From: Occultella kanbiaonis
GTDB lineage: Bacteria > Actinomycetota > Actinomycetes > Actinomycetales > Beutenbergiaceae
Reading direction: 5' to 3'
Assembly (NCBI RefSeq): GCF_009708215.1
Contig: NZ_CP046175.1
Span: 620,001-684,000 of the forward strand
DNA length: 64,000 nucleotides
Shown: piece by piece, positions 52,315 through 60,064 of the stretch
Numbering within the stretch: position 1 is the stretch's first letter
How the letters are laid out: every line of letters starts with the position of its first letter
Position numbers and translations under genes: made by a program
Notes under the pieces: model-generated
Told to the model about the DNA's origin: nothing
What the model saw: the letters and a program-made list of their open reading frames with translations, nothing else
Database searches by the model: none

Positions 52315-52545
52315 TTGGGGCCATGCCCGCACCGAGTGCTCCTAGTCGACGACGACGCGCTCGTGCGCACCGGGCTGCGCCTGATCTGGACAGAGCGGCC
52401 GACGTGGAGGTGGTCGGCAGGGCCGGCGACGGCGACGACGTGGTGCAAGCCGTGCAGGCGCAGGCCCCGGACGTGGTGTTCATGGACCCGCGGATGACCC
52501 GGATAGACGACATCGCCGCCACTGCGAGCCGGCGCGGAAGACGAA
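52315..52545 (+). pseudogene. NarL-type response regulator receiver remnant
   Basis: One frame gives HRVLLVDDDALVRTGLRLIW (acidic pair DDD of the receiver). After a shift near 52385-52395 another gives AADVEVVGRAGDGDDVVQAV and DVVFMDPRMTRIDDIAATAS, where the D of VVFMD is the phosphorylation site. Homology then ends: the receiver C-terminus and the whole LuxR-type output domain are missing. The defence operon begins immediately beyond, so its arrival may have cut this gene. Confidence 0.8.
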
Positions 52546-52556
52546 TGCCTCTGGGA

Positions 52557-53642
52557 CTACTTCGGTGCCAGCGACCTGACACGTTCAACCGACGCGGCGA
52601 GGCCAATTATTGGATTCATGGTCCCACGGACCTGCCGAGGCAGCGAAATGTCGAACGACACCGAGTCGGGCAGGATGTGGGTGATCTCGGCTAGGTCGCT
52701 GCGGCGAGGGAGGCGGAGGCGTTCGTCGTCGAGGTCGTAGAGGCGCTCGGAAACGAGCATGAACGGGCGGACGAGCGACTTCTGTAGACCATGACCCCCA
52801 TGATCAAGCCGCAACGTGCTCCCGGCGTAGTGCCTAACGTTGTCGAGGAATTGTTCGCGGGCGGATTGCGGCAGCTTGGGGAGTATTTCCTGGACGAGTC
52901 CTTCAATGGTGGGAGCACTCGTCGTCTCGATTGGCAGCCAACGCAACACAAGCGAAAACAAGAACAGGGCCGTCTCGGGTGAGCCGCCGACTGAGAGTCC
53001 TACCTCCACCTGATGAGTGCCCTGGATGTGGTGGTTGACATGACCTCCGTCGTTGCCTCGGGTAGTTGTCTTGACCTCGACGCCGACTGAGCCAATCTGG
53101 AAGTCGCGCGTTGATCGGTGCCAGCCGTGCCAGGTCGCGGTGACTGCTTCCGACGGGCCGCCAGCAGGTACTCCGCGGAGGAGCTCAGTGAGAAAGCAAA
53201 GTTCGCCAGCTAGGCCGGTCAGGACCTGGTCTTCCGCGCGGGCTCGTTCGAGCACGGTGGCGATCACAGGTTCTGTTTCGCGAAAGGCCCCTTCGGGATC
53301 TGTAGCGTAGCCGTTGTCTAGCAGTTCTACAGCCAAGAGCGCCGCAATGGCATTGACGTGATCACCTGCACCGAGTTGGAGCCGATTCGCCGCGATCGCG
53401 AAACCTTCCGCAACCCGCCAATTGTTGAAAACCATCTGCTCGGCGATCGTGGCGAGGTCGGCACGGAGCTCAGGCCCGGCAAGGAAGAGTTCGAGGACTC
53501 CCGATGTGTCTCTCGCGGCCCCGAGCGATTGTGTCGAATCGAGCCAGACGACAGTCCTGGAGGTATCCACCTGGGGAACTCGAGCCCTCTCCAGAACTGC
53601 CCGGAGTGTCTCGAACGTCTCGCTGTGGCTAGAAGGTCTCAT
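52557..53642 (-). CDS. PD-(D/E)XK nuclease-like protein of Z1-type defence operon
   Basis: A 361-residue protein of the DUF4420 type (PD-(D/E)XK fold). The active-site order is visible: E147 in TGLAGELCFLTELL, D180 in HRSTRDFQIGSVGVEVKTTT and the E189-x-K191 pair, followed by HHIQGTHQVEVGL. This fits a Mg-dependent DNA endonuclease. It is the last gene of a four-gene operon; its ATG at 53642 overlaps the Z1 stop (ATGA). DUF4420 proteins are known as partners of Z1 ATPases in predicted restriction-like systems, where they would supply DNA cutting. Base composition is lower in GC than in the sugar genes upstream. Confidence 0.82.
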   Translation of the reverse strand: MRPSSHSETFETLRAVLERARVPQVDTSRTVVWLDSTQSLGAARDTSGVLELFLAGPELRADLATIAEQMVFNNWRVAEGFAIAANRLQLGAGDHVNAIAALLAVELLDNGYATDPEGAFRETEPVIATVLERARAEDQVLTGLAGELCFLTELLRGVPAGGPSEAVTATWHGWHRSTRDFQIGSVGVEVKTTTRGNDGGHVNHHIQGTHQVEVGLSVGGSPETALFLFSLVLRWLPIETTSAPTIEGLVQEILPKLPQSAREQFLDNVRHYAGSTLRLDHGGHGLQKSLVRPFMLVSERLYDLDDERLRLPRRSDLAEITHILPDSVSFDISLPRQVRGTMNPIIGLAASVERVRSLAPK

Positions 53643-56446
53643 CTCGCGACGCTCATTCGCGTTGACACGGCTTCGATGTGGTCGGGGCCTCCAGATGGGA
53701 TACTGAGCCCGAGGGCGATCCCTTCCTGAGCGCCGCCTCGTTCGACTAGGTGGAACAACGCGAGCCCGTTCGTACCGGTCGCTCGCGAGCCGTCTGCGTT
53801 GAGGCGCACGGTGTGGCCGTCGAGCATCTGGACGTCAAAGAGATCGTCGCTCCGGTAGCCACTTTCGGTGGCGCCGCGCGAGCCCCACGTTGCACTCAGC
53901 ACGGACTCGGTCGAGGCTCGAGCCATTGCATGGAATGATCTACCGACCTTCTGAGCGAGGTTTGCGAGTGGACCGTACTTCACTGGTGATCCACTCCCGA
54001 ACCGGAGGCCCACATAGAACAGCGGCTGGCTCCTTTGCTTCTCCTCGAGATCCAGCAGGCTCCAACGCTGTGCAGGGAGGTCATTGGTGTACAGGCCGGG
54101 GATGTTTCGCTCGAGCGCGGTGGACCAGAGGCGCAAATAGGCGGCGATGTAGTAAGGGGATAGCGAGCCCAGGTCGACCGATTCGCTGTGGATCGCGGGT
54201 GCGCGATAAAGAGGAATGGCCGGGTCTGTATCAAGTATCCCTGCCTGGCGTTCTATGGCGCGCCACCTCGTAGCATCTTCCGGGGACCAACCGTGATCGT
54301 CATACCGTAACTGTTCCAGCAGTTGTGCTGTCTGAACGAGTGTGACTGGCCGAGAGACAAGTAGGCCCCGCTCGGAACTCACTAATTCACCTCGCGTGCG
54401 GGCGGCATCGAAGAACTCCGAGAGTATCGCGATGTTGGCGTGATCCTTGCCGGGCGAATTGAGGTGCCGGACGAACGGGCGTTTGCCAGGCGACAAGGGC
54501 CGCCCCCGAATCGAGACCTTACCCGTGGCCTGGAAGGCCGCTCCCTGCAGGACTGATATCGTGGGCAGCGTCGCCGTATTCGCGTTCATGGCAGCGATGA
54601 TCTGGGTACGGAGCGCGTCGTCCGCATCGCCGTACTGTGTAAAGAGATCGAGTTGGAGAGGGCTAAGAAAGACTCTGCATAGGTCGAGGTAACTGCCACG
54701 GTAGCCGAACCACCGCTGCATCTGCATCTGCGTGTCGGCATACGGGTTCTTGGATGCGCGGGTGAAGACTGTGGTCAGAAGACCCTCGAGGGTCAAGCCA
54801 CGGGACATTACATTGCCTGATACAAAGACGGTCGAGGAGTTCCTCGGAGCAGCCCACGCTTCACCTGTCCACCAGGGCTCAAAGGCGGGCTTCTCGTCCG
54901 CGTCTGGATCGCTGTTGATGACCGCGATCGTCGTCGCTGGCAGCAACTCCTCCACGATGACTTCGCGAAGTTCTGCCCAGCTTGAGACCGGCCGCTCCGA
55001 CGCACCCGAGAAGCGCTCTTGAACGGTAGCCGCCGAGATTCGGTACGACTCGATCCAAGCGAGCCACATCGATTCGTTCTCGTCGAGGTCGGCGAGAACA
55101 CCGGCGAAGGGCGATGCGCTGGGCGCCGCTTCTGCAAGTGTACCGGTCCACCATCTACGGAGCGCGTCGGCGACAAGGAAGTGATCGGCCATAGAAGAAG
55201 AGGGGTGTACAAGCATGCATGTCGGCGAGGAGAGTTGGGCGACTGCATCGTCGCGCTCCTCGAACAATCGAGCGGCACCAGATGCTGGACGGATGCGACC
55301 TGGGCTTCGGCACAACCGGATTGCGGCCGCCGTGAGGTAGGCGCGCAAAGAGTTGACTACGTGATCGAGGTCCGCCCCTTCGAAGTCTTCGGTTCCTCTG
55401 GTGGACGGTGTGCTTTCCTCCGTTGCTTCGGCGAGAGCGCCCTCGCCGTCGGCAGGAGTGTCGACCACACAGATTGTGTCGACCAGGCTGCGATAGAAGA
55501 GATCCGCACCGGTGTACCACCCTGGCAGGCCTTCCGGAACGGCGTACGTCAAAGAGCGATGGCTCGGGTCACCATTGGGTCCGGGCGTGCGGAGACTTGC
55601 GACGAAGTGCCGCGGCGCAAGCGGGTTGGTTTGGTCCTGGAGGAAGTTCGACTGCGGCGTTGCGGTGTAAGCGACATAGGCCGCGAACGTGCGTTCGTCG
55701 ACTGTCTTCCCAGGTGCTTGCCGTGGCTCCCACAGGTCGAGGATGCGGCGGGGAACCTGCTTGGGGTCTGCCCCGGACGTGTCAACGCCGTCGGCAATCG
55801 AGGAGTCATCGGCCTCATCGTCGATGACCAGTACCCGCAGGTCGAGGTTGAGGCGACGTGCGGCGGGGTAGACCGTTCCGTGCAGGAGATGGCCGACTCG
55901 CTCCAGGTGGTGTACCTCCTTCATCGCAACGACGATGATGGGGCTGCCGCGGCGTAGGGCTGACGCACACGCACTCTCGGTCAGTGAGTACAGGTCCGCA
56001 GGCCCCGGGAAGTGGCCGCCGTCCTCTGCGAGGCGTGGGTTCGGCAGGAAGAGGCGCTTGCTGGCTCTTCCCGGGAGCACGTCAAGTTGTGTCTGTATTC
56101 GGTCGAAACTCTGACGCCACAACGCCGTTTGAGTACCAGCGAGGATGACGACGACGTTCGTCCCGTTGTCGAGGGCACGTGCTGTCACGCCCAGCATCGA
56201 GGCCGTCTTTCCGGATTGGACGGCACCCATCACCACACCCGTCCGGGTGCGAGAGCTGTCCCATTCCGGCGATGTGACGGGCGGGACTGCCCGGTCGGCG
56301 ATGTATGCGGCATCGTCCAGAACCACCTCCCGTGCCACCTGGCCGAGTGACGTGCGCCCGAGCGACTGGGCGTAGCCCGAGAGCCATGCTCCCGGCCTGT
56401 CGGCGACGAGCGACAGTTCTGACTCGCCGAACGTCGGCACGGTCAT
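53639..56446 (-). CDS. Z1-domain ATPase/helicase-like protein
   Basis: 935 residues. Walker A is TGVVMGAVQSGKTASMLG (69-86), the acidic motif RVLVIDDEADDSSI (204-217), and motif III-like YVAYTATPQSNFL (257-269). Later FVSGNVMSRGLTLEGLLTTV and DTQMQMQRWFGYR resemble helicase motifs V and VI. This is the Z1 family, a superfamily-2-like NTPase seen with PD-(D/E)XK, C5-methylase and other genes in predicted defence operons. It probably moves along or remodels DNA after target recognition and licenses the nuclease. Start and stop both overlap neighbours as ATGA, implying fixed stoichiometry in a complex. Confidence 0.87.
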   Translation of the reverse strand: MTVPTFGESELSLVADRPGAWLSGYAQSLGRTSLGQVAREVVLDDAAYIADRAVPPVTSPEWDSSRTRTGVVMGAVQSGKTASMLGVTARALDNGTNVVVILAGTQTALWRQSFDRIQTQLDVLPGRASKRLFLPNPRLAEDGGHFPGPADLYSLTESACASALRRGSPIIVVAMKEVHHLERVGHLLHGTVYPAARRLNLDLRVLVIDDEADDSSIADGVDTSGADPKQVPRRILDLWEPRQAPGKTVDERTFAAYVAYTATPQSNFLQDQTNPLAPRHFVASLRTPGPNGDPSHRSLTYAVPEGLPGWYTGADLFYRSLVDTICVVDTPADGEGALAEATEESTPSTRGTEDFEGADLDHVVNSLRAYLTAAAIRLCRSPGRIRPASGAARLFEERDDAVAQLSSPTCMLVHPSSSMADHFLVADALRRWWTGTLAEAAPSASPFAGVLADLDENESMWLAWIESYRISAATVQERFSGASERPVSSWAELREVIVEELLPATTIAVINSDPDADEKPAFEPWWTGEAWAAPRNSSTVFVSGNVMSRGLTLEGLLTTVFTRASKNPYADTQMQMQRWFGYRGSYLDLCRVFLSPLQLDLFTQYGDADDALRTQIIAAMNANTATLPTISVLQGAAFQATGKVSIRGRPLSPGKRPFVRHLNSPGKDHANIAILSEFFDAARTRGELVSSERGLLVSRPVTLVQTAQLLEQLRYDDHGWSPEDATRWRAIERQAGILDTDPAIPLYRAPAIHSESVDLGSLSPYYIAAYLRLWSTALERNIPGLYTNDLPAQRWSLLDLEEKQRSQPLFYVGLRFGSGSPVKYGPLANLAQKVGRSFHAMARASTESVLSATWGSRGATESGYRSDDLFDVQMLDGHTVRLNADGSRATGTNGLALFHLVERGGAQEGIALGLSIPSGGPDHIEAVSTRMSVAR

Positions 56447-58677
56447 CCTTGTCCCGACGAGAGGCTCGCGAGCTCGCTGAGTCCTGACGATCCGAACTGC
56501 TCCCGGAGCGCGACATCGGCCGTTAAAGGGTCCGTCCGAAGAGCAGCGAGGATCGACCGAACTGCGTCAGCGATGAACTGCCACTGCTCCTTGGACTGGG
56601 TCTTGGTTGGCCGCCTCAGGGACCGCGTTGAATCCTCGAGGGCCTGGAGCACGTCGTCGTCTTCCACCAGGGCACGCGCACCATCCCGGTGCACGACCGC
56701 GGCCCCGGCGAATGCGACCAGAGTGGCGACAAGTTGCAACTCCTGCCAGCGGCCACGACCAAGGGAGTTCTTGAACTTCGGCGCCCATACCTCATCAGGG
56801 ACGGAAGCCTGGAGATCGACGGCTCGGTCCAGGAGTGACATGAGTTCTGCCACTCGCACCTCGGAGTGCAGCGGATCCGCGGCGTGGTCCTGGACGCGCT
56901 TGAGGAGACTATTGATGTGAGCTGAAGTCGACCGACCCTCAAGGCCCGGATCCTCCATGAGCAGCGTGGCTGCCACCCAAGAAAGGGCCTTCGTGCGCTT
57001 GTAGCCAGCGTCACCGAAACCGTAGGCCGCGAGATTGCGAGACGTGGAGGACAAGTCGTCCCAAATATCCTCGAGGAAGGGTGCTACTGTCCCTACGTTC
57101 GGTGAGTCGCCCGCGGTAACCAAGAGTGCACGCATCAGTGCGATTTGATGGTAGGCGGCATTGCGAATCTCCTCGGCGTTTAGGTGCTTGCCCTGCTTGT
57201 TGTAGAGGCTGAAGACCTCATGCACTTGACGCGGATTGGTACCGCTATAGATGATGATCGGTACCTTATAGTCGGTAGCCTGTTCGAAGAGTGCTCGGAT
57301 GGGTCGCTTACTGCCGACCACATCGATGACCACGTGACGTATATCCGTGTAGTAGCGGCCCGCCACGTCGGCGAGGATCCCCGGGACCGCGGCCCCCGCG
57401 GAGCGAAGGGGAAAGGGAAAGTACAGTTCGCGTTCGACTTTGAGTGTGAGCGGGGTCATTTCGTGCTTGCGCCAGAGCTTCTTGAATGCTGGGTAGTTCG
57501 TTCGGAAGATTGCGGCGGCTTCTTCCGTGCCCCATTCCTTGGCCTTTTGTTCGACAGTCTCGAGTGCCTTTGGGTGGGAGCCCGTGAAGCGGAGGATGGC
57601 CGTAAGGCGCTGCTTGCCGTCGACGATCTCGTACTTTTGCCCCTCGTTCGTGTTGTGTTCGAGCACAATCACAGAAGGTAGCGGGATTCCCCGAAGGATT
57701 GACTCGATGAGGAGTTGCGCGTCTCCTGTGGGCCATACGTCGGCTCGCTGATAAGACGGGCTGAGTTCGAGCTCGCGGTCCTCGGCGTGCTGTCTGAACT
57801 GAAAGATTGGCCATACCTCGGCCTTGGCGTTTATCGGCGTGGCGACTTCTGAAGCCTCTTCGGCTTCTTCGAGCGCGAGCCACTCGCTCTCCCACTGCGC
57901 CGAGGCGGTCTCGAGAGTAACGCCTCCTTCCTGCTCTTCGTTGAGGGCGTCGACGAAGTCCCTACGGAAGCCGGTAGCGTGGTCGAGCCGCTCCTGCAGG
58001 GCCTGCAACAGTTCAGTTTCGCCGGTCTCGGACGCAGGCTCGAGCGAGGCACGCAGTGAATCGTCGAACGCGGCGGCGCTCGACTCGTCCAGTGTGTCGG
58101 GGAAGTGCAACCAGTCTTGCACGGCGGCAAGGGCCGTCCGCCACGACGCGTCTTCGAGTCGTATGGCCGCCCTCGAAATCTCCGTAACCTTGCTGGTGTC
58201 CACTCCAGCCGGGGCTGGCCCGGCCTCTGCGAGTTCAGCGATCGAGTCTGCGATGTTGGTCGCGATCTCGCTGAGATCGGTTGTCATATCCATGTCCCAT
58301 TCGTAGTCATCCCAGGCCGGGGCTGAGTTCAGCGTAACGAGGTCGCGTACCAGGGCTCGCGCGGGAGTGCGTCCCGAGTCGATGTGCCAGCGGACCGCGC
58401 CCGCGAGGAGCCTGTTCATACCCTCCAGCGTGATCGTGTCGCCGCGGGAGTAACATGTCTCGTCCCATGAGACCCCGACGACGCTCGCGATGGCCCGACC
58501 GCACGCAATCTTTCCTTGCTCGTGTTCGAGACTTAGGCCCACGAATGTGCCGAGCGCGACGAGCGCCGACTTTTTCTCCTTGCTCCCTGGACCAAGTGGT
58601 TGAGCTACGCGATTGCCGAGAAAGTACATCCGTGCGGTAGCAATGGCTTTCGAAGGCGCCGGTGTATAGGCGACCAT
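56443..58677 (-). CDS. DUF262 (ParB-like) protein with novel N-terminal region
   Basis: 744 residues. Residues 300-510 form a DUF262 domain: LELSPSYQRADVWPTGDAQL, ESILRGIPLPSVIVLE, EIVDGKQRLTAILRF (the usual DGQQR is DGKQR at 353-357) and HEVFSLYNKQGKHLNAEEIR. DUF262 is a ParB/sulfiredoxin-fold NTPase or nuclease of GmrSD-like restriction enzymes. No C-terminal HNH motif is seen. Residues 1-130 (SKEKKSALVALGTFVGLSLE; GDTITLEGMNRLLAGA) and the acidic helical 130-290 are not assigned. The ATG at 58677 avoids a long overlap with dcm. Its stop overlaps the Z1 start. In the usual Z1 operons this place is held by GHKL-ATPase or AIPR genes. Confidence 0.78.
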   Translation of the reverse strand: MVAYTPAPSKAIATARMYFLGNRVAQPLGPGSKEKKSALVALGTFVGLSLEHEQGKIACGRAIASVVGVSWDETCYSRGDTITLEGMNRLLAGAVRWHIDSGRTPARALVRDLVTLNSAPAWDDYEWDMDMTTDLSEIATNIADSIAELAEAGPAPAGVDTSKVTEISRAAIRLEDASWRTALAAVQDWLHFPDTLDESSAAAFDDSLRASLEPASETGETELLQALQERLDHATGFRRDFVDALNEEQEGGVTLETASAQWESEWLALEEAEEASEVATPINAKAEVWPIFQFRQHAEDRELELSPSYQRADVWPTGDAQLLIESILRGIPLPSVIVLEHNTNEGQKYEIVDGKQRLTAILRFTGSHPKALETVEQKAKEWGTEEAAAIFRTNYPAFKKLWRKHEMTPLTLKVERELYFPFPLRSAGAAVPGILADVAGRYYTDIRHVVIDVVGSKRPIRALFEQATDYKVPIIIYSGTNPRQVHEVFSLYNKQGKHLNAEEIRNAAYHQIALMRALLVTAGDSPNVGTVAPFLEDIWDDLSSTSRNLAAYGFGDAGYKRTKALSWVAATLLMEDPGLEGRSTSAHINSLLKRVQDHAADPLHSEVRVAELMSLLDRAVDLQASVPDEVWAPKFKNSLGRGRWQELQLVATLVAFAGAAVVHRDGARALVEDDDVLQALEDSTRSLRRPTKTQSKEQWQFIADAVRSILAALRTDPLTADVALREQFGSSGLSELASLSSGQG

Positions 58678-58720
58678 CAGTCCTGACGCCCATTCGCTAG
58701 GCGGGAACCATATCGAAGAC

Positions 58721-60064
58721 TCATACGAGCACCGGCTCCCGAGCGCTGTCCACCGAGTATGCGTTGGCAATCGGTGTGATTCCCGGGGCAATCTTCGCCA
58801 GGCGTTCGATGTCCCGCAAAATATGCTTGGCGAGGACATATTTTACAACGCCGACATTTACGCCATTGCCTAACTGCTTGTAGGTTGCGGCAATTGGCTG
58901 GTCTCCGAAATCGAACGTCGGAGGGAGTCCCTGGAGTTCCGCGGCTTCGCGCGGCGACAACTTGCGTCGAAGTTCGCCAATGATCGGCGTCTGTGAGATC
59001 GCAACGAGGGCGGGGAGGTGTGTGGGTCGCTTGACTCGGATTCCCGAAGGGCGCAACTGGATTACGCATTGCCATAATGACCGGTCCTGCTGAGCCTGCC
59101 ACTCGAACTTCCGACGAGACGGTGGGAACGAGGTGACGTCATGGCGTGCGATCCATGCATCCAATGCTGATCGATGTGCCGTATAGAACGCGGCGTTCTT
59201 CCGGAGGAAAGTCTCTTTCCATCGAGGTGTTCCCTGGGGGATGATGAGTTCATCTTCATGGACCCAACTGTCAACCCAGATTGGGAACCCTGGTAGGCGT
59301 ATTGAGTCCAACTGCTTGGCTGGCACTCGCGACCGTAATCCCGCGATCGCGATTTCACGGAAGTCGTCCCATGCGTCGATCCAGCGAGCCTCATCGAGCG
59401 TGAGTTCGCATCCGGGAATATACCGCCGAGAATCGAAGTCCAACTCCTCCAGCAGGTTCCACTCCCTGGTGCGGATCATTGTGTTCGTGACGACGGGTGG
59501 CGGATCGAGGCGCGCCTTCTCGGGCCAGTATGTCGCCGTGATGAAGACTCGTTCCCTGATTTGTGGCCGGCCTCCCAGTTCGGTAGGCAGCAGGTGAGGC
59601 GAGAAAATGGCTGGAGTCGACGATACGTGGTACCCCTGGTCCCGAAGGCTACGGATGATGACTTCCCACTCGTGGCGGTGCTTCGGCCCGGCAAGATTTC
59701 GAACGTTCTCGAGGATGACGACCGCCGGATGGTGCTTCTCGATGACCCGTAGGATGTTCCAAAAGAGTGTTCCGCGAGCTTCGTCCATCCCTCGCTGAGC
59801 ACCGGACTTCGAGAATGGCTGACATGGGAAGCCGGCGGTGAGGACATCGTGTGCCGCAATATCTACGCGCTCTTCGTTGGCGAACTGGGTGATGTCACCC
59901 TTCGGGCGCGTCCCATGGTTTCGCTCGTATACGGCTGCTGCGCGTGGATCGATCTCGACTGAGTCCACGCATCGACCACCTAGATCGCTGAGGGCTGCAG
60001 CGAATCCGCCGATACCAGCGAAGAGGTCAACGTACGTGAAGTCGCCGATCGAGTTGTCGGGCAT
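58721..60064 (-). CDS. dcm: DNA (cytosine-5) methyltransferase
   Basis: 447 residues with all key C5-methylase motifs in order: I FTYVDLFAGIGGFAAAL, IV AGFPCQPFSKSG (catalytic Cys), VI VVILENVRNL, VIII GRPQIRERVFI, a ~180-residue target-recognition region, and IX-X LSPREAAELQG ... TYKQLGNGVNVGVVKYV. It would mark self DNA for the operon downstream; the target sequence cannot be predicted. GGGGGAG precedes the ATG. It is the first gene of the four-gene minus-strand operon, 43 bp before the DUF262 gene. AT-richer codon use suggests acquisition by transfer. The 194 bp between it and the SDR gene should contain the operon promoter. Confidence 0.95.
   Translation of the reverse strand: MPDNSIGDFTYVDLFAGIGGFAAALSDLGGRCVDSVEIDPRAAAVYERNHGTRPKGDITQFANEERVDIAAHDVLTAGFPCQPFSKSGAQRGMDEARGTLFWNILRVIEKHHPAVVILENVRNLAGPKHRHEWEVIIRSLRDQGYHVSSTPAIFSPHLLPTELGGRPQIRERVFITATYWPEKARLDPPPVVTNTMIRTREWNLLEELDFDSRRYIPGCELTLDEARWIDAWDDFREIAIAGLRSRVPAKQLDSIRLPGFPIWVDSWVHEDELIIPQGTPRWKETFLRKNAAFYTAHRSALDAWIARHDVTSFPPSRRKFEWQAQQDRSLWQCVIQLRPSGIRVKRPTHLPALVAISQTPIIGELRRKLSPREAAELQGLPPTFDFGDQPIAATYKQLGNGVNVGVVKYVLAKHILRDIERLAKIAPGITPIANAYSVDSAREPVLV

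Follow-up and report, generated by a model that had tools for sequence, protein, structure and literature searches.

We analysed an operon on the minus strand of a 64,000-nucleotide window from Occultella kanbiaonis (contig NZ_CP046175.1), which spans window positions 52557..60064 and carries genes for a Dcm methylase, a DUF262 protein, a PF10593 (Z1) protein and a DUF4420 PD-(D/E)XK protein (Table 1). A first-pass annotation, made from the letters of the window, had reported this four-gene set, and Pfam matches to the four families confirm it.

Table 1. Features of the operon, in window coordinates.
Feature	Position	Strand	Basis
dcm, C5-cytosine DNA methylase, 447 aa, modification	58721..60064	-	PF00145 E 1.9e-67; PDLC00034 620.2 bits
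Codons of Dcm Pro80-Cys81	59822..59827	-	alignment A6; coordinates computed from reading frame
DUF262 (GmrSD_N) protein, 744 aa, proposed reader of methylation state	56443..58677	-	PF03235; alignment A3, 44 rows
N-terminal domain, residues 1-100	58378..58677	-	profile search; family alignment; model
DUF262 core, residues 305-509	57151..57765	-	PF03235
DGKQR motif of DUF262 core	57607-57621	-	in 44/44 rows
PF10593 (Z1) gene	53639..56446	-	PF10593 match, residues 405-625
Short stretch inside PF10593 gene	56204..56227	-	coordinates computed from reading frame; alignment counts
DUF4420 PD-(D/E)XK protein, 361 aa, putative nuclease	52557..53642	-	PF14390 E 6.3e-14
Putative PD-(D/E)XK catalytic stretch D180 ... 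E189-x-K191	53070..53105	-	alignment A4

Conserved residues of the methylase, Z1 protein and putative nuclease

Residues P80, C81 and E119-N120-V121 of Dcm are kept in 45 of 45 aligned rows, and from knowledge of the family we take Cys81 to be the catalytic Cys. The Z1 protein is invariant across 40 rows at G79-K80-T81, D209-D214 (DDEADD), T261-P264 (TATP) and Q575-R583 (QMQRWFGYR). Similarly, D180 of the DUF4420 protein is present in 38 of 38 rows and E189 and K191 in 37 of 38 each; the putative catalytic motif composed of these residues is our own assignment from the alignment. At one locus (L046 14871-15926), I and R replace the putative catalytic Glu and Lys of the DUF4420 protein, and the other three genes are present.

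The DUF262 protein and its N-terminal domain

PF03235 scores 83.2 bits on the DUF262 protein (cut-off 33.2), which identifies a GmrSD_N domain. The protein had been described at first pass as having an unassigned N-terminal half and no HNH motif. Residues 1-129 gave no Pfam match at E<=1, and no match to the DUF1524 (GmrSD_C) HNH nuclease was found by Pfam in the protein at E<=0.01. In the AlphaFold model (mean pLDDT 88.3, pTM 0.52), the N-terminal domain is made up mostly of helices and is followed by a helical middle region; an alpha/beta core lies near residues 283-510, and the C-terminal part is entirely helical. Over residues 1-100, pLDDT is 87-98 by 10-residue blocks. The structure comparison that the first-pass annotation had called for, run on this model with Foldseek, returned only weak matches: nothing in the PDB reached E<=0.001, BrxU came second (E 0.1, prob 0.44), and the ParB/Noc entries behind it had low probabilities and stood alongside other weak, unrelated hits. 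These results agree with a ParB-like NTP-binding core in the model, short of proof. A second gene with a match to the DUF262 core lies elsewhere in the window's own genome (G000:C1:3224305-3224514, L015; 36% over 73 residues).

Of the 44 rows of the DUF262 family, 25 carry the N-terminal domain. A profile search recovered it from 14 of 248 genomes, five of which have it in duplicate within one protein of ~470-560 aa. This two-copy protein adjoins a Dcm of the same kind at all five loci. Most simply, the domain would be part of the restriction side of this Dcm family, perhaps as a DNA-binding module. Two of the five two-copy proteins, P0011 and P0018, were scanned and had no Pfam or PADLOC family matches; a D...DxK pattern seen in both by eye could be a candidate PD-(D/E)XK site. 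Pairs of Dcm and a two-copy protein (L106 8786-11632; L108 8028-10945; L109 7928-10971) look like a small restriction-modification pair, with P0011 and P0018 as close relatives. In a single case (L107 426-12435), DISARM drmA and drmB adjoin a UvrD-type helicase, the same DUF262, a two-copy protein and a Dcm.

A proposed restriction system and its alternatives

The four neighbouring genes very probably form a system that cuts virus or plasmid DNA. Dcm would mark the cell's own DNA, the DUF262 protein would read the methylation mark, and the Z1 and DUF4420 proteins would cut foreign DNA. The earlier interpretation of the operon as a defence system is supported in part. The marking-and-reading pair of Dcm and DUF262 also adjoins other cutting machines in related bacteria.

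An unlikely alternative is that the system depends purely on DNA modification. In its favour, modified cytosine is the target of GmrSD and BrxU, SspE senses phosphorothioate and methylated DNA is likely recognised by the DUF262 of Dazbog (PMC10952713); the model also shows weak fold similarity to BrxU. However, all 44 loci carry a C5 methylase, and such a system would have no need of one; nor was a match to the GmrSD_C nuclease domain found. Still less likely is an abortive system akin to MZA, set off when methylation is lost or a phage takes over the cell, that would damage the cell and leave incoming DNA uncut, because the operon has neither AIPR nor MutL-like genes and scores far under the NCBIfam equivalog cut-offs for MZA (NF041933, 110.7 bits vs 1500) and, for the PD-(D/E)XK protein, MzaD (NF041934, 24.2 bits vs 420).

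At the same site in three congeneric genomes (L162-L165), the chromosomal interval occupied here by the operon contains other genes, some of them restriction-like. Just downstream of the operon (window ~52340-52520, plus strand), a short stretch resembles by eye a response-regulator receiver domain and is possibly a gene remnant.

Comparison with known systems

MZA (mzaABCDE; composition beyond MzaC and MzaD in part from PMC9523054) differs from this operon, which has DUF262 and a C5 methylase and lacks a MutL-like or AIPR gene; each of the four genes matches another family, and the rest of the genome was not searched for these two. One of the closest known systems has two types. In the section of its description consulted, type I has three further genes, whereas the operon adds just one, DUF262; type II has AIPR and MORC-type neighbours, whereas AIPR is absent here; and DUF262 is not mentioned. 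The source of the DUF4420 comparison prints the domain as DUF4220. The MORC/paraMORC (GHKL) restriction operons (PMC2292703) likewise bring together methylase, SF2 helicase and restriction-fold endonuclease genes, but the operon lacks a GHKL gene and has DUF262 in that place. The CglI / NgoAVII restriction-modification system (PMC4267653) comprises three genes, with a PLD-type nuclease bearing a B3 DNA-binding domain and neither DUF262 nor DUF4420; no PLD or B3 match was found in the operon's DUF4420 gene at E<=0.01. With GmrSD, BrxU and SspE (DUF262 + DUF1524), the operon shares a DUF262 core with the DGxQR nucleotide motif, here DGKQR.

Druantia type II differs in that neither DruE nor DruF, and no apparent DruG, is encoded in the operon. 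The DruF2 model PDLC00023 had no match in the window's genome, where DruE was not searched for beyond the operon, and the DruG2 model PDLC00024 had none in 24 family genomes, this one included, but it found none in the 14 control genomes either. In contrast, Dcm scores best against the PADLOC model of DruM2 (PDLC00034, 620.2 bits), the methylase of Druantia type II, and can be placed among DruM-type C5 methylases; a related pair of Dcm and DUF262 accompanies DruF2 and DruE2 in relatives.
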